Below the pieces are notes generated by a model. That model did not search any database. It was not told where the DNA came from and saw only the letters and a program-made list of their open reading frames with translations. Position numbers and translations under genes: made by a program. A DNA stretch of 64,000 bases from Polycladomyces zharkentensis. Its GTDB lineage: Bacteria; Bacillota; Bacilli; Thermoactinomycetales; JIR-001. The stretch is from the NCBI RefSeq assembly GCF_016938855.1, contig NZ_JAFHAP010000004.1:310001-374000 (forward strand), read 5' to 3'. Shown in pieces: positions 2,465-14,003 of the stretch; within the stretch, counting starts at the first letter, position 1; each line of letters begins with the position of its first letter.

Positions 2465-4288
2465 TTATTTTTTGTTGCTGTCGTCCATCTTCAATACGGC
2501 CATGAACGCTTCCTGCGGCACTTCCACACTGCCCACGGCCTTCATTCGTTTTTTCCCTTCTTTTTGTTTCTCCAAGAGCTTCCGTTTCCGGGTGATGTCC
2601 CCGCCATAGCACTTGGCCAACACGTTTTTGCGCATGGCGCGGATCGTTTCACGGGCGATCACCTTGTTGCCGATGGCCGCCTGAATGGGGACTTCAAACA
2701 TTTGCCGCGGGATGAGTTCTTTCAGTTTTTCCACCAGCTGGCGTCCGCGATAATACGCTTTGTCGCGGTGAACGATGAACGACAGCGCGTCAACCGGTTC
2801 ACCGTTAAGCAGGATGTCCATTTTCACCAAATTGGATCGTTTGTATCCGATCAGTTCGTAATCGAACGATGCGTATCCTTTGGTCCCTGACTTCAGTTGG
2901 TCGAAAAAGTCATAGACGATTTCGGCCAGCGGCAGTTCATAGATGATATTGACACGGTTGTTGTCCAGATATTGCATGTCGATATAATCGCCCCGTTTGT
3001 TCTGGCACAGCTCCATGACCGCGCCCACGTAATCATTGGGTGTCATGATGCTGGCCCGCACATAGGGCTCCTCCACATAATCGACCTTCTGTTGGGGCGG
3101 CATGTGTGTCGGGTTTTCGATATCCAGCACCGTGCCGTCGGTCTGATGGACCCGGTACACCACGCTGGGGGCGGTGGTGATCAGCGGTATGTCGAACTCC
3201 CGCTCGATTCGCTCCTGAATGATCTCCATATGGAGCAAACCCAAAAAGCCGCATCGGAATCCGAATCCGAGCGCGGTCGACGTCTCCGGCTCATAGCGCA
3301 GGGACGCATCGTTCAACTCCAGTTTTTCCAGTGCCTCACGCAAGTCGTCGTAATCGGCGGAGTCGACCGGGTACAGTCCGCAAAACACCATCGGATTGAT
3401 CCGCCGGTATCCCGGTAACGGCTCGGCGGCCGGACGCTCCGCATCCGTGATGGTATCCCCGACCCGGGTGTCCTTCACATTCTTGATGCCGGCTACCAGA
3501 AATCCCACTTCACCCACCGATAATTCATCCATCAGCACAGGATGCGGCGTGAATGCACCCACTTCCGTCACTTCAAACGTTTTACCGGTGGACATCATTT
3601 TGATCTTCATGCCCTTTTTGATCGTGCCTTCAACGACCCTCAGGTAGACGATGACGCCTTTGTAGGAGTCGTACAACGAGTCGAAAATGAGCGCTTTCAG
3701 CGGCGCATCGGGATCTCCCTTGGGCGGGGGCACTTTCTCGACGATCTGCTCCAAAATTTCTTCGATCCCGATCCCCGCCTTGGCGGAAGCCAGCACCGCT
3801 TCACTGGCATCCAATCCGATCAATTCCTCGATTTCGTTTTTTACCCGATCCGGTTCGGCGCTGGGCAGATCAATCTTGTTGATGACCGGGATGATTTCCA
3901 AATCATTTTCCAACGCCAGGTATACGTTGGCCATCGTTTGCGCTTCGACGCCCTGTGCCGCGTCAACAACGAGGAGCGCTCCTTCACACGCGGCCAGGCT
4001 GCGGGAAACTTCATATGTGAAGTCCACGTGCCCCGGCGTGTCAATCAGGTTGAGAATATACTCGTTTCCATCCTTGGCACGATAGTTCAGGCGTACCGAC
4101 TGCAACTTGATCGTAATGCCGCGTTCCCGTTCCAGATCCATCTGATCCAGAAACTGGTCAGTCTTCTCCCGTTCGCTCAGTGCGCCGGTATACTCCAGAA
4201 TCCGATCGGCCAAGGTCGATTTTCCGTGGTCAATATGAGCGATAATGGAAAAGTTGCGTATGTTTTGTTGCCGATTCCGTTTCTCCAC
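2465..4288 (-). CDS. lepA: Elongation factor 4 (LepA), back-translocating GTPase
   Basis: A 607-residue translational GTPase: G1 loop AHIDHGKST at residues 17-25, DTPGH and NKID motifs, EF-G-like domains and the LepA-specific C-terminal domain ending in basic residues. It acts on stalled ribosomes. An ATG 39 bases further upstream (4327) would add a non-homologous extension. The GTG at 4288 has AGGAGGG directly upstream and gives the usual family length, so it is chosen. In Bacillus lepA follows yqxA directly; here trpEG and a repeat cluster lie between them. Confidence 0.97.
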
Positions 4289-4383
4289 TTGTGTCCCTCC
4301 TGCACGGGCAACGCACAAAGACTGCATTTTTATATTATATCAGGGAACATATTCATCATCAATTGGCACGATATCATGAAAAC

Positions 4384-4406
4384 GGCCAAGCCGACAAGGC
4401 TTGGCC
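4384..4406 (-). terminator. Hairpin between trpEG and lepA
   Basis: GGCCAAGCC, five bases, GGCTTGGCC. On the minus strand it is followed by GTTTTC. It could terminate transcripts from trpEG before lepA, but the T-run is weak. Confidence 0.4.
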
Positions 4407-4443
4407 GATACTGCTGACAAAGAAGGGTAACTCCCGTCATTCC

Positions 4444-4513
4444 GGGTGCGCCGTTTTTCCTCACGCTTCTCTTTCGAAAAGCGCAAAGACTGCCCGATGG
4501 AAAACAGCCACCC
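4444..4513 (+). repeat. REP-like palindrome, family C copy 1
   Basis: An imperfect palindrome that opens with GGGTGCGCCGTTTTTCC and closes with GGAAAACAGCCACCC. It shares ends and a CTCTTC-type centre with copies at 4661, 7904, 22385, 38337, 41367 and 61863. Confidence 0.6.
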
Positions 4514-4660
4514 TCATTCAACGCATGTCTGGTGATTCCTGTTCCATTGCTTACCCAGGCTCGCTCCTTCGCCCAGCAGGAAACAGAGCAAGGTTGTTTT
4601 GAAGCAATCTCACATCTCCGTGATACGCCAGCCTACTGGTTGTCTACCATCGCAATTTCA

Positions 4661-4728
4661 GGTGAGCGGTTTTTCCTCTCGCTCTTCTTTCGGCCATGCA
4701 AATGTCGCTCACAGGAATTCGGTCACCC
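4661..4728 (+). repeat. REP-like palindrome, family C copy 2
   Basis: GGTGAGCGGTTTTTCCTCTC at the left and GGTCACC at the right, with the shared TCGCTC core. It abuts the family A element that follows. Confidence 0.6.
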
Positions 4729-4737
4729 TCTTTTGGA

Positions 4738-4964
4738 GTCTGTCTGGTGAATCCGTGAGGGAGCAAATGCTTTCCCAGGTGAGCGACTGACCAAGCCCCG
4801 GCCGAGCGAAGACCCGGAAAGCGCAGGAATGAAATCACAGGCAACTTCCTCTGAGCGAAGCGTACTTTGCCTGCGTCCTGCGCTCCGGGTCGGAGCGGCC
4901 ATGACTTGCATCCTTGAGGGCGCAGGTAGTGCGAACAGAGGAAAGCAGTTGGCCTGACACACCC
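4738..4964 (+). repeat. Interspersed element, family A copy 1
   Basis: A non-coding element of about 227 bp. It starts GTCTGTCTGGTGAATCC and ends CCTGACACACCC, as imperfect inverted ends. Its core (4811-4891) folds as nested arms GACCCGGA/TCCGGGTC, GCGCAGGA/TCCTGCGC and CAGGCAA/TTTGCCTG. The same layout recurs at 20061 (reverse), 25171, 47225 (reverse), 51573 (reverse) and 62085. No coding sequence is seen. It is probably a MITE-like non-autonomous element or a structured intergenic repeat. Confidence 0.65.
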
Positions 4965-5066
4965 TATTCAGCGAGTCCGAAGTTCCCGCCGAGTGCGGAG
5001 CTTGAGACGGGAAACCGGAAGCCGCGGACTTGGTCCATCACCTGAACAGCTTGCTGATTGCGGATG

Positions 5067-7250
5067 TCATCCCGTCCGGACCGGCAACATCTCCATCACA
5101 TTTTCAATGATGGTGAACCCCACGGAGCCGCCCGCCGTCATGATCGACTCCGGATGAAACTGTACGGCCCAAATCGGTAGTGACCGGTGTTCAATCGCCA
5201 TCACGATGTCATCTTCGGAACGGGCGATGACACGCAGTTCCTCGGGTACGCGGGATGCAAACAGCGAGTGGTACAAACCGGCCGTAAACGTCTCGGGCAC
5301 ACCCTTCCACAACGGACTCGCGTGGACGATGGACACGGTGCGTTTTTTTCCGTGCAACGGTTCGGGCAGGATTCCCAGTTCACCGCCGAAATGCTCGACC
5401 AGCCCCTGCAATCCCAGACAGACACCGAACACGGGAAAATGTTTCTCAAGGCACAACCGAATCGTTTCATTCAATGCAAACTCCTCCGGACGTCCCGGTC
5501 CGGGAGACAACACCACCAAATCAAAGTCTTCCCGCAACAAAGCATTTCGGGCCGCATCCGATCGCAGGGTGATCACTTCCGCTCCAGTCCGGCGAAAATA
5601 CCCTGCCAATGTGTGGACGAACGAATCTTCATGATCCACCAACAGGATCGATTTGCCCCGTCCGGTCTTCCGCTCGGCCGAAAAGACGATCGGCGGTTCT
5701 TCACCGGCCTCGCGAATCGCCTGCAACAGAGCGGCCGCCTTTACCCGTGTCTCCCGGTCCTCCGCATCGGGGTCCGAGTCGTGGAGCAAGGTGGCTCCGG
5801 CACGCACCCACGCTTGTCCCGACTGCAATTTCATGGTGCGCAATGTCAATCCGGTGTTGACATTCCCGTTGAACGCCAGATAACCGACAGCACCGCCGTA
5901 CCATTCGCGCGGGCTGTCCTCATGTTCCTCAATCCACCGGATCGCCGCCCGTTTCGGAGCACCTGTGATCGTAACCGCCCACATGTGTGTCATAAACGCG
6001 TCGAGCGAATCGTACGGCGGACGCAACCGCCCTTCCACATGATCCACGGTGTGGATGAGGTGCGAATACAGCTCCGTCTGCCTCCGACCGATCACCCGAA
6101 CCGATCCCGGTTCGCAAATTCGGGACTTGTCGTTGCGGTCCACATCGGTGCACATCGTCAATTCGGCTTCATCCTTGGTGGAATTGAGCAGCCGACGAAT
6201 CTGCTCGGCATCCTCCAGTGCGTCCGAACCACGCGGGATCGTGCCGGAGATGGGACACGTCTCCACCCGATCCCCTTCCACACGGACGTACATTTCCGGG
6301 GATGATCCGACCAAGTGGGCATCACCCAGATTGATCAAAAAGCAATAGGGACTCGGATTGATCTGCTTCAGCCGGTCAAACACCCGGGTCGGGGCGGCAG
6401 TACAATCGGCGGTGAACATCTGCGTCGGTACCACCTCGAACAGATCGCCCCTGCGAAACGCCTGCTTGGCCTTCCGCACCAGCTCCGGATAATGCCCGTC
6501 CGGGGTCGGTTTCGCTGATGGGATCGTAGCTGTTCGGGACAACCCTTCCCGCATTGAGATCGGACGCTTCGGCAGCATCACCGTCGATATTCCATCTGCG
6601 GCAAACTGATAGGTGAGATGGTACGCACGCGCCATCTGGTGATCAATTACGGCAATCCGGTCCGGCAGGTACAGAACCAAATCGGCTTGATCCGGTCGAC
6701 GGCGATGTTTCAGTTTCATCGGTTCCAGTTGAAACACCAGATCGTAACCAAACGCGCCGTACAATCCGAGAAAAGCATCCTCATCTGAGAAAAACAAATC
6801 CCGGATCGCCCGGATGACGGTAAAAATGGACGGCAAGCGCGTCCGATCCTCTTCACATCGCATGTCTTCCGGCTCTGGCTCTCTCACCGTTCCCCGGAAC
6901 ATATGGGGGTCCACATGCGTCAGCCGTACGTCGGGTATACTTTGCAGCGTACGTTTCACGGCTTCCAGCAACACAACGCCATGCTCCCAAAGCGCCCGCA
7001 CCTCGAAGGTACGCCCGAAGCCGCGGATTTCCACCGGAGGATTCACCAAACCGATATCCCACCGGGAGTACCGTCCCGGATATTCATAACAGCTGGAAAA
7101 CCAAATACCTTTGTGCCCGTCGATGGTTCGGGCGACTTCATCCATGGCTTCAGCCGGCGCGACAGGTTCCGTCAACCTGCGAATATCCACGCCGCCTTTC
7201 GTCCGGTAACTCAACACTTCCGTGGATGTGACTGCGGATAACAGTGACAC
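5067..7250 (-). CDS. trpEG: Anthranilate synthase, fused components I and II
   Basis: A 727-residue fusion. Residues 1 to about 520 are a chorismate-utilising TrpE-like domain; from about 528 (ILLVDHEDSFVHTL) a class I glutamine amidotransferase follows with nucleophile C611 (FGVCLGLQG) and H699/E701 (FHPES). It converts chorismate and glutamine to anthranilate, the first step to tryptophan. The fusion matches the TrpE(G) form best known from rhizobia and is unusual in Firmicutes, which normally keep trpE and trpG apart. It stands alone, without other trp genes. Start is GTG at 7250, after AAGGAGGA. PhzE has the same layout, but no phenazine genes are present. Confidence 0.9.
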   Translation of the reverse strand: MSLLSAVTSTEVLSYRTKGGVDIRRLTEPVAPAEAMDEVARTIDGHKGIWFSSCYEYPGRYSRWDIGLVNPPVEIRGFGRTFEVRALWEHGVVLLEAVKRTLQSIPDVRLTHVDPHMFRGTVREPEPEDMRCEEDRTRLPSIFTVIRAIRDLFFSDEDAFLGLYGAFGYDLVFQLEPMKLKHRRRPDQADLVLYLPDRIAVIDHQMARAYHLTYQFAADGISTVMLPKRPISMREGLSRTATIPSAKPTPDGHYPELVRKAKQAFRRGDLFEVVPTQMFTADCTAAPTRVFDRLKQINPSPYCFLINLGDAHLVGSSPEMYVRVEGDRVETCPISGTIPRGSDALEDAEQIRRLLNSTKDEAELTMCTDVDRNDKSRICEPGSVRVIGRRQTELYSHLIHTVDHVEGRLRPPYDSLDAFMTHMWAVTITGAPKRAAIRWIEEHEDSPREWYGGAVGYLAFNGNVNTGLTLRTMKLQSGQAWVRAGATLLHDSDPDAEDRETRVKAAALLQAIREAGEEPPIVFSAERKTGRGKSILLVDHEDSFVHTLAGYFRRTGAEVITLRSDAARNALLREDFDLVVLSPGPGRPEEFALNETIRLCLEKHFPVFGVCLGLQGLVEHFGGELGILPEPLHGKKRTVSIVHASPLWKGVPETFTAGLYHSLFASRVPEELRVIARSEDDIVMAIEHRSLPIWAVQFHPESIMTAGGSVGFTIIENVMEMLPVRTG

Positions 7251-7446
7251 GAAAGTTCCTCCTTGTCAGGGAGGAGCACAGGAGAAAGCGAGGGAGTTGG
7301 GAGGTGAGGGCAAAAAAACCTTCTTCAGGGCGGCATCCTTTACCGGACACACCCTTGATACCTTTCGGTCAAAATCTTCTTTCTCTCCGACTCGTCTCTG
7401 CTCGGCTCCGCTCCGCTCTTCCTGGCTCTGCTCCGTTTTGTTTGAT
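7251..7446 (-). promoter_or_regulatory. TRAP-type leader of trpEG
   Basis: On the minus strand the leader opens with GAG triplets at 7431, 7426, 7416, 7411, 7406, 7401, 7396, 7391 and 7385 (left coordinates), spaced by two or three bases, with one degenerate AGG in register at 7421. This is the layout of an 11-repeat TRAP target. Downstream is a CU-rich stretch, then UCCUCC (7270-7275) able to pair with GGAGGA (7257-7262), which is the ribosome site. Bound TRAP would leave this hairpin free to form and block translation when tryptophan is plentiful. No TRAP gene is in the window. Confidence 0.8.
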
Positions 7447-7450
7447 TGTC

Positions 7451-7480
7451 ACTATACCACGGAACGACTTTCTCCATCAA
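7451..7480 (-). promoter_or_regulatory. Sigma-A promoter of trpEG
   Basis: TTGATG, 18 bases, TATAGT on the minus strand. It places the transcript start a few bases before the first GAG triplet of the leader and abuts the end of yqxA. Confidence 0.7.
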
Positions 7481-7486
7481 CGGCTT

Positions 7487-7852
7487 TCATGGATTTTTGC
7501 CATCTGAATCCAACCATCCCACAATCACTTCAATCGCCTTTCTCGCCCCCTCCCGGATACCACTGCCCATCTCATTGCCCATCTTGGCCAGTATGCCGCT
7601 GTTTTCTTCCACTGAACGCTTCACTTGTTTCACCCGTTGGACATTCTTCTCGGAAACGGGATTTTCCGTTTCCACCACATGTCCCATCACAGAGATTTCC
7701 ACCCTGCCGTTTTCCGGCGTGATATGAACTGCCCGTGGGGCTCCTTCGTTGCCCTGTATTTTCTGGATGTTTTGTTCAGCCGTGTCGATGCCCAGAAACA
7801 CCCCGAACATCAACACCAGCAACAGCGCGGTCACTTGTGCCGCCCATCTCAT
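7487..7852 (-). CDS. yqxA: DUF3679 family protein YqxA
   Basis: A 121-residue protein with an N-terminal membrane segment (about residues 4-22) and a short exported domain ending in basic and amphipathic residues. Sequence and position, directly after spoIIP, match Bacillus yqxA. Its function is unknown; context in the spore gene cluster suggests a sporulation-associated role, which is inference. Confidence 0.8.
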   Translation of the reverse strand: MRWAAQVTALLLVLMFGVFLGIDTAEQNIQKIQGNEGAPRAVHITPENGRVEISVMGHVVETENPVSEKNVQRVKQVKRSVEENSGILAKMGNEMGSGIREGARKAIEVIVGWLDSDGKNP

Positions 7853-7903
7853 TTCACATCACCTGACCATTCCGGAACATATCGGATCAATCCATCTCGT
7901 TCG

Positions 7904-7969
7904 GGGTGAGCCTGTTTCCCTCTCTTCTTTTCGTCAACTCCAAGGTCACTTGCGAGAAACAGGCCACCC
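7904..7969 (+). repeat. REP-like palindrome, family C copy 3
   Basis: GGGTGAGCCTGTTTC at the left and GAAACAGGCCACCC at the right form a long stem. It fills the gap between spoIIP and yqxA. Confidence 0.6.
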
Positions 7970-8000
7970 TCCCCAAAGCCTTGCAAACAGAAAACAGCCT

Positions 8001-9164
8001 CTATTGAGAGCCACCTGATGACGATGGTCGGGCGTCCACGGGTTCGGTTTGGAAATACAGATCCGCAAACGCACGGGCCAACGCTTTGGTGGTACGGAAC
8101 ACTTCATCAAAGTTGTTGTCCACCCCGCCGATTTCCACCAAGATGCTCCGCGGCGACAAGGATTGGTTGTATTCGCCGTTGCCCGTGGCACGGTTTTTGA
8201 GAAACACGCCTTTGGACAACCCCGGATACAGGGACTCCAGTTTGTTATGCAGTTGACGGGCCAGTTTCAGGTTCTGTTCCCAATCCTCATGTGCCGTACC
8301 GATGACGAATGCAATGCGGGCGTAGGGCTTCCCGTCGATCGTCGTGGTGGTTTTGTCCCGGCGTTGCGAATCCCGGTGAATATCGATGAAGTATTGCAAA
8401 TCCTGATTTTGCCGCATCGCCGCCAGCACCGTTTTGCGGGAGGAGCGATACAGTTTGGGGTGCTCTTCCTTGTAATGCGCGGTGGAGACTTCTGCCCCGA
8501 TTCCCAGGCGTTCCAACTCCTTGCCCAATCGCTTGCCGACCAAGATCACGTTTGTGTTCCAGTCATAAGCTCTGTCGGGGTCGCTCCTGCCCAATTCCGG
8601 CAAATACGATTCGCTGAAATGCGTCTGATAGATGAAGACACGCTTGACGGAGGGTGAAGGTGACGGCTCATCCACACGATCAGACGGGGTGCGGTCCTTT
8701 CCCTTTTCGGATTGTCGCTCCAGTTCTTTGGCCAAATCCGGCGGCGGTTCTGATTCGATGGGCACGTCGGTGTATTTGACGCCTTGTCCGGCTACGACGA
8801 TTTCGGTGTCAAACAAAGTGAATCCGGGTAATTCCCGTCCGATAAACGTGCGGGGGTCCTTCGGATCGATGCTGGTGGCCAGTTCAAAAAAAAGTCGGGA
8901 CATCCTCCCATCAGCCTGCTCATCCCGCATCGCCGCCAAATACGGAATCTCTCTACCCATCGCCCACAACAACGTATCGGCCGACAGGTGAGCGGTCAGT
9001 CTGCCGAGATCGGAAGAGTGTGCGCTCCGTTCTGCCTCCAACATGGCGAAAGCGCCGGTAAAAATGAAAACCAACGCCGTTCCCAGTATCAACAGGACAA
9101 ATGATTGGCGTACACGTGGCCCGGACATGTTCAACGTAGCAAAACCCCGATAACGGTGGCGCAT
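8001..9164 (-). CDS. spoIIP: Stage II sporulation protein P, peptidoglycan hydrolase
   Basis: A 387-residue membrane-anchored SpoIIP. One transmembrane helix lies near residues 20-42, followed by a variable linker with a PSPSP stretch, then the amidase/endopeptidase domain with THFSES, DIHRDS and VEIGGVDNN motifs. With SpoIIM and SpoIID it drives septal thinning during engulfment. It sits downstream of gpr as in Bacillus. The ATG at 9164 has an AGGGGGAG just upstream. Confidence 0.95.
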   Translation of the reverse strand: MRHRYRGFATLNMSGPRVRQSFVLLILGTALVFIFTGAFAMLEAERSAHSSDLGRLTAHLSADTLLWAMGREIPYLAAMRDEQADGRMSRLFFELATSIDPKDPRTFIGRELPGFTLFDTEIVVAGQGVKYTDVPIESEPPPDLAKELERQSEKGKDRTPSDRVDEPSPSPSVKRVFIYQTHFSESYLPELGRSDPDRAYDWNTNVILVGKRLGKELERLGIGAEVSTAHYKEEHPKLYRSSRKTVLAAMRQNQDLQYFIDIHRDSQRRDKTTTTIDGKPYARIAFVIGTAHEDWEQNLKLARQLHNKLESLYPGLSKGVFLKNRATGNGEYNQSLSPRSILVEIGGVDNNFDEVFRTTKALARAFADLYFQTEPVDARPSSSGGSQ

Positions 9165-9276
9165 TCCTCTCCCCCTCTATCATCCTTGTCTTATCCAAGG
9201 TATATGAAAGAAAGGGACGAGGTAGAACCTATGAAAAACGAAGCGAATTGATAGAACAAACGGCTGTGTGCCGATT

Positions 9277-10398
9277 TCAGTTTGTATGAGCCGATACGTT
9301 ATCAATGGTAACCGATTCATGCAATGCGCAATTGATTCCGTCCGCCACCAGTTTGCCGATATCAGAGATAAAATCATCCACCTCTTTGGGAGTGACGATC
9401 AGGTTTTGTCCCAACGGTGAGAGAACTTCGTGGATCAACTGCCGTTTTTCCTCATCACTGAGCACGCCGATCAATCCCAGAAACTTGTTTTTGGCTGCTT
9501 CATCCACTTTCTGATTCTGCAACTCTTTCAAATCGGGCCGATTCAACGGGTCAAGCGGGTTGGCCGGCTTTTTTTGGTTCATCTCTCGTTGAAGGTGCGA
9601 CATCACCAATTCGATCGTGTCATATGTAATCGTCGCCGCATCCACCACTGTCGGTACCCCGATCGCAATCACGGGCACACCCAACGTGTCACGGTTCAAT
9701 GCTTTTCGTTTGTTCCCCACACCGGAACCGGGATTGATACCGTTATCTGCCACTTGGATCGTGGTGTTGACCCGCGTCAGTGCTCTGGATGCCAACGAAT
9801 CGACGGCGATGACGGCATCCGGTTTCGTTTTTTCCACGAGGCCGCGTACAATTTCGCTCGTCTCGATTCCGGTCGTACCCATCACCCCCGGTGAAATGGC
9901 ACTGACCGAACGGTACCCTTCTTCCACTTGTTCCGGCATCAGCTGAAACAGGTGGCGGGTGATCAGTGTGTGTTTCACGACAAAAGGTCCCAGCGCATCG
10001 GCGGTCACGTTCCAATTGCCCAACCCGACGACCAGGATCTTGTCGTCCGGGGCAATTCCCGCCTCTTCGAGAAAACGGGAAAATTCCCGGGAAAAATGGA
10101 CGGCCACCCGATGTTGCAGTTCCGAATCCTTGCTTCTGAGCCCCGGCACTTCCAATGTCAGATAGGTCCCCTGCTGTTTTCCCAGTTCGCGGGCTCCCTC
10201 TTCACTCTCCACCCAAATCCAGCTGGTTTTGATACCATCTTCATCGTATTCTTCCATCCGCACACCGGGGATTTCCCCTTCTTCGCGGGCTTTCAGTGCC
10301 AGATCATGAGCTTCCCGCGCGAGGTCCGTCCGAATGGCCAAAGCACTCAAATCCAGCATCGGCCGATCTTTCGCTCCGTCCCGTTTGTCATGTGCCAT
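9277..10398 (-). CDS. gpr: Germination protease Gpr
   Basis: A 373-residue self-processing endoprotease of family A25 that degrades small acid-soluble spore proteins at germination. The conserved core (VGLGNWNVTADALGP, SPGVMGTTGIET, AVDSLASR) is intact, and the N-terminal propeptide (about residues 1-17) is present. It is divergent from rpsT, as in Bacillus. Expression from a forespore sigma factor is expected, but I could not find a convincing sigma-G promoter. Confidence 0.96.
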   Translation of the reverse strand: MAHDKRDGAKDRPMLDLSALAIRTDLAREAHDLALKAREEGEIPGVRMEEYDEDGIKTSWIWVESEEGARELGKQQGTYLTLEVPGLRSKDSELQHRVAVHFSREFSRFLEEAGIAPDDKILVVGLGNWNVTADALGPFVVKHTLITRHLFQLMPEQVEEGYRSVSAISPGVMGTTGIETSEIVRGLVEKTKPDAVIAVDSLASRALTRVNTTIQVADNGINPGSGVGNKRKALNRDTLGVPVIAIGVPTVVDAATITYDTIELVMSHLQREMNQKKPANPLDPLNRPDLKELQNQKVDEAAKNKFLGLIGVLSDEEKRQLIHEVLSPLGQNLIVTPKEVDDFISDIGKLVADGINCALHESVTIDNVSAHTN

Positions 10399-10468
10399 GC
10401 CCGAAATCAGCTCCTCTTGCTCAGATACATCCTATTTTTGCCATACATTCCCCCTCATTATTCCAAGC

Positions 10469-10497
10469 TTGCAATTTGCCCAATGCCGTGCTACAAT
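10469..10497 (+). promoter_or_regulatory. Sigma-A promoter of rpsT
   Basis: TTGCAA, 17 bases, TACAAT. The transcript would start about 45 bases before the rpsT start. Confidence 0.8.
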
Positions 10498-10551
10498 TGA
10501 GCATGTTGCACGCTAAGGGACGCAATGGTGGTATCTGCAGGAGGTGAAATC

Positions 10552-10818
10552 ATGGCGAACATCAAATCTGCGATCAAACGGGCGAAAACCAACGAAAAAC
10601 GCCGGATGCATCGCGCGGCTCAAAAATCCGCCATCCGTACGGCCATCAAAAAATTCCTGGCCGCAGTGGAGGCCCAGGATAAGGAACAAGCGGCCGTGTT
10701 GTTGCGCGAAGCTTCACGGAAATTGGACAAAGGCGTCACCAAAGGCCTTCTCCATAAAAATGCCGCGGCTCGGAAAAAATCCCGCTTGGCTCAAAAATTG
10801 AACGCCTTGAACGGTTAA
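10552..10818 (+). CDS. rpsT: Small ribosomal subunit protein bS20
   Basis: An 88-residue, very basic, helical S20 ([10 protein letters not shown]). It binds 16S rRNA early in 30S assembly. ATG at 10552 follows AGGAGGTG with normal spacing; a start further upstream would add nine residues not found in the family. It has its own promoter and terminator and is divergent from gpr, as in Bacillus. Confidence 0.98.
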
Positions 10819-10823
10819 TCGGA

Positions 10824-10852
10824 CGACCCCACGCAGGGTCGGCTTTTATTTT
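10824..10852 (+). terminator. rpsT terminator
   Basis: CGACCC, six bases, GGGTCG, then GCTTTTATTTT. Confidence 0.85.
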
Positions 10853-10874
10853 CGATCATCATACATCATAACAG

Positions 10875-10901
10875 AAGGTCCGGGCGATTCACCCGGACCT
10901 T
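10875..10901 (-). terminator. Hairpin after trpS
   Basis: AAGGTCCGGG, seven bases, CCCGGACCTT. It lies between the convergent ends of rpsT and trpS. The T-run on the minus strand is weak. A second long stem, GAGCGAGTGG (10915) with CCACTCGCTC (10965-10974), lies between it and trpS. Confidence 0.5.
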
Positions 10902-11062
10902 AATGCTATTGTAAGAGCGAGTGGTGCTGATTCCCGTTTCAGTTCCGGGGTCATGATCTTTTCCCCACTCGCTCCTGTCTCGCTTCATCGAAGACCGTTC
11001 GCAGGGTTAAGCCACCCTCTCACGTCCCGCTTACGATCCCCCGCAATGCCGGTATGTCCTCG

Positions 11063-12055
11063 TTACCGGCCAAACGGCGGCACCAACCCCATCGCTTCCT
11101 TCATCCTGGCCAGCGTTTCATCCGCGATGGCACTCGCTTTTTCCGCACCTTCGGCCAGTACGCGCTCCACTTCCCCCGAGCGCCGCAGTTCGTGATAACG
11201 CTCGCGAATCGGTGTGAGATGTTCCACCACTGCTTCGGCCACTTCCTTTTTCAACTGCCCGTATCCTTGTCCTTCAAATTGCTTGACCGTGTCATCAATC
11301 GACCGTCCCGTGATCAGGCTGTAAATAACCAACAGGTTGCTGACCCCAGGCTTGTTCTCCGGATCATAGGCGATGCGGTTCTCCGAATCGGTCACCGCCC
11401 GTTTGATTTTCTTCACGATCACATCCGGCTCGTCCAAGAGCGCAATGTAGTTGGCTTCACTTCCGGCGCTTTTGCTCATCTTTTTCACCGGATTGTCCAA
11501 TCCCATGATACGCGCTCCCACTTTCCCGATCAGCGGTTCCGGCAATGTCAGCACTTCCCCGTACCGGTTGTTAAACCGCTCGGCCAAGTCGCGCGCCAAT
11601 TCCAGGTGCTGTTTCTGGTCTTCCCCCACCGGAACGGCGTCCGCTTGGTACAGTACGATGTCTGCCGCCTGCAGCACGGGATAGGTGTACAAACCGACGA
11701 CTACGCCTTCGGAACCCTGGCTTTTTTCCTTGAATTGCGTCATGCGATTCAACTCGCCCATACGGGCCACGCATTGCAACAACCAACCGGCTTCCGTATG
11801 CGCCCGAACATGGGACTGTACAAACAGTGTGGCCTTTTTCGGGTCCAAGCCGGCTGCCAGATACAACGTCGCCACTTCCAATGTCTTTTCCCGCAACTCA
11901 TCGGGATCACGCGGTACGGTCAATGCGTGAAGATCGACCACACAGTAGAAGCATTCCGCTTCATCCTGCAATTCCACAAACCGCTTCAACGCACCGAGAT
12001 AGTTGCCCAGATGCAGATTTCCCGTTGGTTGAATGCCGGACAACATCCGTTTCAT
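11063..12055 (-). CDS. trpS: Tryptophanyl-tRNA synthetase
   Basis: A 330-residue class I synthetase with the HIGH-like TGNLHLGNYLGA at the N-terminus and KMSKSAGS. The ATG at 12055 (MKRMLSGIQPTGNLH) is the family start; an upstream in-frame extension would run into the T-box. It charges tRNA-Trp. Expression is set by a T-box leader with a TGG specifier, so it responds to uncharged tRNA-Trp, whereas trpEG about 4 kb away carries a TRAP-type leader. Confidence 0.97.
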   Translation of the reverse strand: MKRMLSGIQPTGNLHLGNYLGALKRFVELQDEAECFYCVVDLHALTVPRDPDELREKTLEVATLYLAAGLDPKKATLFVQSHVRAHTEAGWLLQCVARMGELNRMTQFKEKSQGSEGVVVGLYTYPVLQAADIVLYQADAVPVGEDQKQHLELARDLAERFNNRYGEVLTLPEPLIGKVGARIMGLDNPVKKMSKSAGSEANYIALLDEPDVIVKKIKRAVTDSENRIAYDPENKPGVSNLLVIYSLITGRSIDDTVKQFEGQGYGQLKKEVAEAVVEHLTPIRERYHELRRSGEVERVLAEGAEKASAIADETLARMKEAMGLVPPFGR

Positions 12056-12081
12056 TGACCATTCAGCTCCTTTTTCCTCAA

Positions 12082-12397
12082 AATAAAAAACCCCATCCCC
12101 ATAGGGACGAGGCATTGCTCGCGGTACCACCCTGATTCGCCAAAAAACGGCGCACTTGATTGCCATAACGGTCTGTGGACCGGTTCCGCCTACTCGGACT
12201 TGAGCGTCCTTTCGGAGAACGGCTCCGAAGCCCATTCACGCGGGAGCCCGGTTGACTCGCACCGACCGTCAACTCTCTGAACGGGCCAGTCCGCGCTACT
12301 CTTCTTCTTCCTCGCCTTGAACGGTATCCGATTGTCCGTTTCGCCGACGGTCTCTTTCATCCCAACCCTGAAAGAGCCAAGCGTTCCGGCTCATCAT
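12082..12397 (-). promoter_or_regulatory. T-box leader of trpS
   Basis: On the minus strand: stem I with an AGAGAGTTGACGG region, specifier TGG in GTGAATGGGCTTC, then the T-box AGGGTGGTACCGCG (about 12120-12133) and a terminator CCTCGTCCC/GGGGATGGGG followed by TTTTTTATTTT. Uncharged tRNA-Trp would stabilise the antiterminator. Confidence 0.95.
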
Positions 12398-12403
12398 GAT
12401 AAC

Positions 12404-12432
12404 AAGATAACAAGAAATGGCGCCGGATGCAA
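12404..12432 (-). promoter_or_regulatory. Promoter of the trpS T-box leader
   Basis: TTGCAT, 17 bases, TATCTT on the minus strand, about ten bases upstream of the leader. Confidence 0.7.
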
Positions 12433-12547
12433 CCTGACTTACCGAAATATTTACACCAAGACTGGTATGTTACGATTTCGGTGTTCAAGTAGGAGGGTTG
12501 ACCATACAGGCCTTGATGGTCTGGACTTGGTCAAAGTCTATTCTAAA

Positions 12548-12877
12548 TCATCGAATCTCTTCCACCAATACTCTTCCAGTTATCGTTTGGTGATCTCCAC
12601 CCTGTCTTGGTACTTGTCCAACGCCGCCGACACGCGAAATCAATAATTGCTTTTCCATTAACCACAACACAATGCATCGGTTTGGGCTATTCGGTTGTGG
12701 TTGACGACAGGTTGCGACGCAGCTTTGTTTTTCAAACGCGGTGGCCACGCTCGACGTTATCGCTTGGGCCAAGTTATCTTGTTCCTGATGGTTCATCCTC
12801 TCGCAAGCGCAACAGAATTTTGGTATTATTAAGCTGAGAAGTGCGAAAACAGTTAAACATAAAAATATGGACATCAT
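12548..12877 (-). CDS. Hypothetical small membrane protein
   Basis: I do not recognise this 109-residue frame. It starts MMSIFLCLTVFALLSLIIP, a likely membrane anchor or signal, then has several cysteines and a polar tail. The ribosome site is weak (AAAAAGG). It lies in the decayed mobile region beside the CRISPR relic, so it may be a remnant. Coding status is uncertain. Confidence 0.3.
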   Translation of the reverse strand: MMSIFLCLTVFALLSLIIPKFCCACERMNHQEQDNLAQAITSSVATAFEKQSCVATCRQPQPNSPNRCIVLWLMEKQLLISRVGGVGQVPRQGGDHQTITGRVLVEEIR

Positions 12878-13083
12878 GCCTTTTTGTTTTGTTTCCGAAC
12901 AGCCTTCGCTTCGAAAAATACCCGGGGGGTGTTCGGAAATACGAAGTTCCTTGTGTGATAAGAGCTTTCGGAGATTTTGTCCGGCTGGAAATACAGTAGG
13001 AAACACAGAAAATGGGTGCTTTTGAGGAGGTGTTCGGAAAACTGCGGGAGAATTGAGATAAACCAAGGGGCTTGGCAAACGCT

Positions 13084-13196
13084 GTAACAATAGATACACC
13101 TCTGTAGTGAGGATTGAAGCCACAGGTATCTACCACGATTAGGATCAAACAATTCGGGCGCAATAATAGATACACCTCAGTAACGAGGATTGTAAC
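13084..13196 (+). CRISPR. Two-repeat CRISPR relic
   Basis: Two 37-base repeats (13084-13120 and 13160-13196), 30 of 37 identical, flank a 39-base unique spacer (13121-13159). Each has the internal palindrome CCTC..GTA..GAGG and ends GGATTG(A/T)A(G/A)C, as in type I and III repeats. Period is 76 bases. No cas gene or further clear repeat is found within the window, so it is a degraded orphan. Confidence 0.55.
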
Positions 13197-13289
13197 TCGA
13201 AGCGTTAACATTGAGCCCGTAGCTGGACAGAGGAAATAAATTGTTTGAAGCCCTGAGAGTTCGCTAAACCGGCCGACCACTCGGCAAAG

Positions 13290-13518
13290 CGTCGTGTCAT
13301 TTTTTACCAAACCACCTTGCATGTCATCCGCTAAGGGCGTAAAGGCCATGATGATATTAATTACGCCCTTCATTACGTTGATAAATGCTTCTCCAAATGC
13401 CCGAATGCCCGGCGTTTTGATTCAGCCACTGGAAAAACCGCTGGAACTCTGCCCCCATAATCGCTTGATCCACACTTTTAAATACATCGGATATAGCACC
13501 GATCGACGATTGGAACAT
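13290..13518 (-). pseudogene. Frameshifted remnant of a mobile-element membrane protein
   Basis: From ATG 13518 a frame reads MFQSSIGAISDVFKSVDQAI and onward to about NQNAGHSG. It then continues sensibly only after a frameshift near 13390, as FGEAFINVMKGVINIIMAF. The hydrophobic, helical sequence and the short membrane peptide just upstream suggest a conjugative-element membrane component. That assignment is weak; the frameshift is visible. Confidence 0.3.
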
Positions 13519-13571
13519 GGGCTTTAATCCTGATAATACCTTCGTATCGGAAGTTAGAACACCGACTCACC

Positions 13572-13673
13572 TCAACCCCTATGAGTCACCGCATAAATCC
13601 AAAAAGCCAGCAACCCAAATACTGCCACAGTGAACCCGAACATCAACCCGATCATCAACCCGAACCAGAACAA
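13572..13673 (-). CDS. 33-residue hydrophobic peptide
   Basis: A TTG start at 13673 follows GAGGAGGGG with six-base spacing and reads LFWFGLMIGLMFGFTVAVF and onward to TGA. It is almost entirely membrane-spanning. It lies directly upstream of the frameshifted remnant and divergent from hicA. Possibly a surviving small gene of an integrative element; function unknown. Confidence 0.35.
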   Translation of the reverse strand: MFWFGLMIGLMFGFTVAVFGLLAFWIYAVTHRG

Positions 13674-13690
13674 TAAATTCCCCTCCTCTA

Positions 13691-13743
13691 TCGAAAATAC
13701 GTGCTAAATATGCATTTAATACGTATCGAATACGTGTTATAAT
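13691..13743 (+). promoter_or_regulatory. hicAB promoter with repeated AATACGT boxes
   Basis: TATAAT at 13738-13743 with a weak -35 (TTTAAT) 17 bases upstream. Three AATACGT boxes (near 13697, 13718 and 13729), two of them inside a repeated TCGAA..AATACGTG context, cover the promoter. They could be the operator of the HicB ribbon-helix-helix domain. Confidence 0.45.
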
Positions 13744-13767
13744 AAATATCGAAGGGAGGGGAAGCAA

Positions 13768-13962
13768 ATACCAAAGTCATCACGGGAAATCATCAAGCTG
13801 TTAAAGAAGGATGGATGGTACTTAGAACGGGTGACGGGTGACCATCACCACTTCCGACACCCAACAAAAAAGGGCACCGTAACAGTGCCTCATCCAAAGA
13901 AAGATTTACCCAAAGGAACAATAAGAAGTATTGAACGTCAATCCGGGGTCAAACTTCTTTGA
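13768..13962 (+). CDS. hicA: HicA mRNA-interferase toxin with ATA at the start position
   Basis: A 64-residue HicA: PKSSREIIKLLKKDGWYL, then VTGDHHHFRHP with the catalytic histidine region, and the GTVTVPHPKKDLPKGT motif. Family members begin MPK; here the codon before CCA AAG is ATA, not ATG, although the ribosome site AGGGAGGGG is ideal, six bases away. Either initiation is from ATA at low rate or a mutation has silenced the toxin. The next in-frame GTG would delete the first helix. It is followed by hicB after 41 bases. Confidence 0.75.
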   Translation: MPKSSREIIKLLKKDGWYLERVTGDHHHFRHPTKKGTVTVPHPKKDLPKGTIRSIERQSGVKLL

Positions 13963-14003
13963 CCCCGCCCTTCCCTTCAAGTATATCAAAGGAGTTGATA
14001 CAG

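Follow-up and report, generated by a model that had tools for sequence, protein, structure and literature searches.

How is a fused anthranilate synthase gene controlled when it stands alone? The trpEG gene in the 64-kb stretch of DNA analyzed here (the window) raises this question, and the answer that we favor, with good confidence, is that TRAP uses its 5' leader to switch translation in response to tryptophan. TRAP is a textbook RNA-binding attenuator, and most work on it concerns B. subtilis, G. stearothermophilus, and B. halodurans. By computation we found a row of TRAP-type triplets, an mtrB gene in the same genome, conservation of the row, competing pairings in the leader, and a fit between the site and the tract that precedes the ribosome site (SD). 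All features of the trpEG leader lie on the minus strand of the window:

7451-7480, minus strand: promoter-like TTGATG (7480-7475), 18-base spacer, and TATAGT (7456-7451), with TG preceding the -10; scan, consensus match only
7385-7433, minus strand: TRAP-type target of nine GAG triplets and one AGG triplet; chain scoring
7420-7428, minus strand: GAGC-CAGGA within the triplet row, holding the AGG triplet; 5' arm of an anti-sequestrator predicted by folding
7328-7354, minus strand: hairpin GGGUG-UGUCC...GGAUGC-CGCCC; fold, alignment, and inspection by eye
7270-7310, minus strand: C/U-rich tract complementary to the GAG row; fold and sequence
7274-7283, minus strand: UCCUG (7283-7279) and GCUC (7277-7274) in the C/U tract; 3' arm of the anti-sequestrator predicted by folding
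7257-7275, minus strand: SD-sequestering hairpin UCCUCC (7275-7270)-CUGACAA-GGAGGA (7262-7257), predicted by folding
5067-7250, minus strand: trpEG, fused anthranilate synthase of 727 aa with a GTG start at 7250; NCBIfam

The TrpEG protein scores 1006 bits against TIGR01815 (TrpE-clade3; cut-off 739, residues 15-722) and 1052 bits against NF010081 (cut-off 645). The gene is flanked by lepA (2465-4327; named from its sequence) on one side and by spoIIP (8001-9164) and gpr on the other, all three unrelated to tryptophan. An earlier note on this DNA had described a single-chain TrpEG standing alone, which agrees with a 727-aa protein above the TIGR01815 cut-off that has no trp neighbors. Between spoIIP and the trpEG promoter lies a 121-aa ORF (7487-7852, minus strand) without an NCBIfam match. 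A separate trpE elsewhere in the genome was considered and rejected; the two other chorismate-binding proteins pass the PabB and DhbC cut-offs instead. The PabB-passing protein (477 aa, 384.6 bits) reaches a higher score, 417 bits, against trpE_most, under that model's cut-off of 517.7, and may still have a TrpE role.

The GAG triplets of the row begin at 7433, 7428, 7418, 7413, 7408, 7403, 7398, 7393, and 7387 and the AGG triplet at 7423, giving steps of 5, 5, 5, 5, 5, 5, 5, 5, and 6 bases. The excerpted text of PMC4347634 describes TRAP targets as 9-11 NAG repeats, mostly 2-3 bases apart, and nine GAG plus one AGG at steps of 5-6 bases agree with that description. The row scores 8.05 as a chain, compared with 3.0 for the runner-up on either strand of the 64-kb window and a top score of 4.30 in 40 Markov-1 simulations of 64 kb; none of 2000 Markov-1 leaders with the leader's own composition reached the score of the row. 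The nine GAGs and the degenerate triplet in register that the note had reported are present, at 7433-7385, far above chance. In the genome as a whole, a search for six KAG units with at most two mismatches returned nine matches in only two clusters, both preceding trp genes; with the same pattern, isolated two-mismatch matches elsewhere number one in G001 and two in G002, the two sister genomes. The reversed pattern is not an independent control for this search, because GAG repeats match it too. Both sister genomes keep the row with an identical chain score, and the loss of triplet spacing in close relatives, which the note had seen as telling against its reading, was not what we found.

The same note placed the row shortly after a promoter, and this holds for the promoter-like TTGATG-18-TATAGT, from which transcription is predicted to start near 7444, about 11 bases ahead of the first GAG. 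Promoter-like sites in 4900-7600 number three, compared with 1.0 expected, and in the alignment of three genomes one base of the spacer is changed in both G001 and G002. Downstream of the row, a run of seven U (7318-7312) begins nine bases past the hairpin at 7354-7328, and G002 has six T at the same place. Judged by eye, the stem of this hairpin is kept in G002 and disturbed in G001 by a deleted base. Hairpin and U-run are perhaps a pause or a spacer. The last triplet lies 134 bases from the start codon.

The earlier note proposed looking for mtrB and rtpA in the same genome. A profile search returned a single mtrB match (G000:C8:385075-385278; 142.4 bits, cut-off 21.3) whose product exceeds the NCBIfam MtrB equivalog cut-off and aligns with solved MtrB chains with no gaps in the two alignments shown. 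A 29-residue stretch of this MtrB contains lysines and an arginine that we take to be RNA-binding. The rtpA half of the proposal had the opposite outcome: no match to anti-TRAP was found in the genome with PF15777 at E<=0.001, a model that also responds to E. coli and other controls. Within the order, mtrB is present in 39 of 42 genomes and fused trpEG (E<=1e-120) in three of 42, all of one genus. TRAP rings of 11 and 12 subunits are the subject of PMC3435397, to judge from an excerpt; an 11-mer ring could accommodate more than the ten triplets found here, which we count against the switch reading.

A UCCUCC able to pair with the GGAGGA ribosome site had also been reported, and folding places this hairpin at 7275-7270 and 7262-7257; it shares two bases with the predicted anti-sequestrator, in which GAGC-CAGGA (7428-7420) pairs with UCCUG-U-GCUC (7283-7274). 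To compare the two states, the cost of opening the SD was computed for a free row and for a row constrained to be single-stranded in 32 leaders, a set without those whose chain scores below 3.9 or lies under 35 bases from the start (L007, L012, L016, L218) and without L215, where the start was not found. Blocking the row raised the opening cost by a mean of 5.3 kcal/mol, with a rise above 0.3 kcal/mol in all but one of the 32 leaders, and in 18 of 32 the observed rise was reached by at most 3 of 60 mononucleotide shuffles of the spacer. For the window the rise is +4.4 kcal/mol, which four of 60 shuffles reach; the sister genomes show rises of 4.9 and 3.2, reached by 6/60 and 13/60 shuffles. 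Three leaders (L010, L017, L072) shift by less than the mean of their own shuffles.

The pairing between row and tract recurs in other letters in other leaders: GAGAACAGG with CCUGUUCUC in L008, GGACAGCAGAGUA with UGUUCUGUUGUCC in L005, GAGACAUG with CAUGUCUC in L013, and GUAUAGAAGAGCA with UGCUCUUCUGUAU in L045. The stems of the SD hairpin likewise vary among genera and still pair. When sites and tracts of 22 leaders were compared with permuted partners, 0 of 5000 permutations paired as well as the native combinations, and a repeat with ten leaders, one per group, again gave 0 of 5000; matched base composition may contribute to this result. For seven of the 22 leaders (L005, L013, L018, L020, L035, L049, L211), over half of all swapped partners match or surpass the native pairing in one or both directions. 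Within species, mononucleotide shuffles of the tract gave a mean z of -1.29, negative in 19 of 22 leaders (window -1.18, 36/300). In the window, the AGG triplet pairs with the tract before the SD with a probability of 0.94, versus 0.35 for the canonical GAGs. An off-consensus triplet is present in 25 of 31 leaders and out-pairs the canonical ones in 15 of these 25. That the off-consensus triplet serves as the partner in every leader was rejected, its pairing probability being 0.0 in five Saccharibacillus leaders and in L017, L072, L216, and L220.

Folded together with 45 coding bases, the window's leader has the SD hairpin in its minimum-energy structure in both states, and the SD is unpaired with a probability of 0.17 when the row is free versus 0.03 when it is blocked. 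The predicted change is a matter of degree, because the minimum-energy fold has the SD hairpin even with the row free. With 18 coding bases, four of the five anti-SD bases shift to the row and the SD is still 5/7 paired elsewhere; in the sister genomes the SD hairpin itself stays. Only eight of 27 leaders have a minimum-energy SD that is less paired free than blocked. Judged by opening cost and pairing fit, the leaders would undergo refolding of the trpE type, with a minimum-energy change that is clear in only part of them.

These folds suggest how the switch would work. At low tryptophan, TRAP would be empty, and pairing of the GAG row, with the CAGGA around the AGG triplet, to the C/U tract before the ribosome site would weaken the UCCUCC/GGAGGA hairpin and allow ribosomes to start on trpEG. 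At high tryptophan, the TRAP ring would wind the row around itself and free the C/U tract, which would then fold onto GGAGGA, and translation of trpEG would fall. We infer the binding of TRAP, its dependence on tryptophan, and the repression itself, and with that proviso the proposal of the earlier note, TRAP-dependent translational repression as known for Bacillus trpE, is supported.

Not covered by the note is another triplet row in the genome, which precedes trpDCFBA and has a terminator. On contig C8, which is not the contig of trpEG, aroF, aroB, and aroH are followed by trpD, trpC, trpF, trpB, trpA, and further genes (trpB identified by search, the others named from sequence), and there is no trpE between aroH and trpD. 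The leader is:

about C8:372400-372530, minus strand: trpD leader (locus L117, G000:C8:362001-380000); alignment, pattern search, and fold

It combines a promoter-like TTGACA/GATACA with a 13-triplet chain, of which 11 lie in the regular part, and a perfect, strongly terminator-like hairpin, GACCAAAGC-GCCUCU-GCUUUGGUC, followed by GUUUUU. This hairpin folds whether the row is free or blocked, and no competition from an antiterminator was seen. Because the trp operon without trpE keeps its own triplet row and terminator before trpD, tryptophan control appears to be split over two leaders. The search of the order yielded 30 trpD loci, and in 25 of them trpE precedes trpD; the other five are those of the window's genus (three genomes) and of two further genomes. 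L187 (G031) and L199 (G023) lack trpE directly upstream of trpD and keep a chain, together with what looks by eye like a hairpin and T-run. Four relatives examined from the order have a chain before trpE and then, by eye, a similar hairpin and T-run. Read against these relatives, with chain and hairpin before trpE or before a trpE-less trpD, the trpD leader appears to be the old leader of the trp operon, retained after trpE was lost.

The trpEG leader design is common to other genera and not peculiar to this genome. From a scan of named genomes we retained the best 80 fused TrpEG loci, 31 from Bacillota and 49 from other phyla. With a chain threshold of 3.9, set once the scores had been seen, 26 of the 31 Bacillota leaders carry a chain, compared with none of the 49 from other phyla (maximum 3.5) and one of 3100 mononucleotide-shuffled Bacillota leaders; the 26 include L016, whose chain scores 3.95, or 3.10 if the leader ends at the start codon. 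The Bacillota leaders without a chain are L012, which has a T-box, and four Syntrophomonadaceae. An mtrB gene was found in 30 of these 31 Bacillota genomes and in none of the 18 genomes searched from other phyla, and all 26 chain-bearing leaders belong to mtrB genomes. Three of the four Syntrophomonadaceae (L022, L026, L028) have mtrB and a trpEG leader without a chain. Upstream of trpEG, trpB/trpA occur in six of the 31 Bacillota loci, one of which also has trpC and trpF; downstream, no relative of trpA-D, trpF, or hisC was found in the 31 loci, within flanks of at most 3 kb, some of them shorter. Of 398 genomes sampled across the class, 15, including the window's own genus, have the fused gene at E<=1e-180.

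A 95-row tree, built by a quick method, places the 31 Bacillota proteins and the window's genus on one side of a branch with SH-aLRT 98; row L025 is unreliable in this tree, having a very long branch and a gene match that spans about 600 extra bases. The TrpEGs of L215 and L218, also members of the class, fall on the other side with proteobacterial rows. A T-box suspected by eye in L218 had no match at the Rfam gathering score.

A wider reading is possible, and we offer it tentatively. A TRAP translation switch may be the usual control of stand-alone fused trpEG in a clade of Bacillota and may have travelled with the gene as a gene-plus-switch module. One triplet would be kept off consensus in part of the clade as the partner of the tract before the SD, so that the TRAP site would itself form one half of the switch. 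The module would have replaced the operon's trpE in the genus of the window, leaving the old TRAP attenuator to run trpDCFBA.

The alternative that survives best, although we consider it improbable, is that TRAP bound to the row acts mainly by terminating transcription, either near the hairpin at 7354-7328 and its U-run or at the SD hairpin. That hairpin and U-run are present, and by eye kept in G002, and the scan lists the SD hairpin (7275-7257) as a weak terminator-like structure, the sole such match in the leader; an excerpt of PMC3913778 reports that TRAP terminates at weak or deleted B. subtilis attenuators and that weak ones occur in other species. However, nine bases separate the stem from the U-run and no terminator was called at 7354-7312, terminator-like sites in 4900-7600 are at the chance level (4 vs 3.0), and the trpD leader of the same genome shows what a perfect hairpin with a U-run looks like. 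A crude check found a terminator-like hairpin after the chain in five of the 31 Bacillota leaders (L006, L010, L012, L025, L051), those of L012 lying in or near its T-box, and none in the other 26. Translational control is favored because the trpEG leader lacks a terminator except for the weak match at the SD hairpin.

It is less probable still that the row is a TRAP site used in some other way, by direct blocking of ribosomes or by a change in mRNA decay, with no refolding switch. Direct blocking is a known mode of TRAP action in the excerpted PMC4347634, and in L007 (Rossellomorea aquimaris), which has trpB and trpA upstream of trpEG, the triplets upstream of 3001 run through the SD to the start codon in a direct-blocking layout. 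The 134 bases between the window's last triplet and its start codon argue against this use here, as does the fit of site and pre-SD tract to one another across genera.

Control of trpEG by another tryptophan device, either a T-box or the kind of leader peptide known from rhizobial trpE(G), is very unlikely. T-boxes do precede fused trpEG in L012 (2705-2939; Lederbergia sp. NSJ-179) and L016 (2696-2936; Sporolactobacillus inulinus), the latter also carrying a weak triplet chain over its SD, and S. meliloti trpE(G) is under trpL attenuation according to an excerpt of PMC7298713. At window positions 4000 to 14000, however, Rfam gives only the T-box leader (12100-12321, minus strand, 131.8 bits) of trpS, a gene about 4 kb from trpEG, and no other match to RF00230 at the gathering score, and by eye the trpEG leader RNA contains no UGG codon before the start, as a leader-peptide attenuator would need. 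That the GAG row arose by chance, or is a purine-rich repeat that plays no part in TRAP control, is equally unlikely, for beyond the general point that purine-rich leaders exist, it is largely contradicted by the chance tests, by conservation together with mtrB, and by the second row before trpD.

If the TRAP-run translational switch is real, one TRAP runs two separate leaders in one pathway, and the two outputs probably differ: translation of the committed enzyme and transcription of the rest. Some 30 natural leaders would then be available for testing the co-evolution of ring protein and RNA switch, and fused TrpEG enzymes would be tied to different tryptophan sensors by lineage (TRAP, T-box, or leader peptide). 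Among the literature titles and abstract openings listed we saw no description of TRAP control of a fused trpEG; a prior description is possible.

Refolding driven by TRAP is already known from B. subtilis trpE, where a long-distance change in RNA structure hides the ribosome site (Du and Babitzke 1998, Merino et al. 1995, cited in the excerpted PMC4347634), and excerpts of PMC4347634, PMC3913778, and PMC13170310 describe both refolding and direct SD blocking in B. subtilis. As in B. subtilis trpE, a TRAP-type row lies upstream of a trpE-type gene, and the bound row is predicted to favor a structure that hides the ribosome site. Unlike the trpEG leader, that of B. subtilis also has a transcription attenuator, and its trpE heads trpEDCFBA; here a fused trpEG stands alone with no clear attenuator, and CAGG, which lies within the row, is a predicted pairing partner of the tract before the SD. 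The fused stand-alone target with a pairing partner borne by the row would, from its sequence, be a variant of the known system. Predicted TRAP control at the level of translation also recalls B. subtilis trpG(pabA) and trpP (excerpts of PMC4347634 and PMC13170310), although the window's row does not cover the SD but ends 134 bases before the start; the direct-blocking form of those genes is resembled by L007. No TRAP sites were found at the genome's own pabA and pabB loci (best chains 2.0), unlike B. subtilis trpG(pabA). T-box leaders are likewise tryptophan-responsive leaders of Bacillota trp genes, but they sense tRNA; those of trpE are noted in a T-box survey (PMC2494555, in excerpt), and they precede trpEG in L012 and L016 and not in the window. 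Rhizobial trpE(G), as described in the excerpted PMC7298713, likewise encodes a fused anthranilate synthase in the same protein class, stands alone, and is controlled separately from the rest of the trp genes, but it uses a leader peptide and transcription attenuation, whereas the window's trpEG is predicted to use a protein-bound RNA switch.
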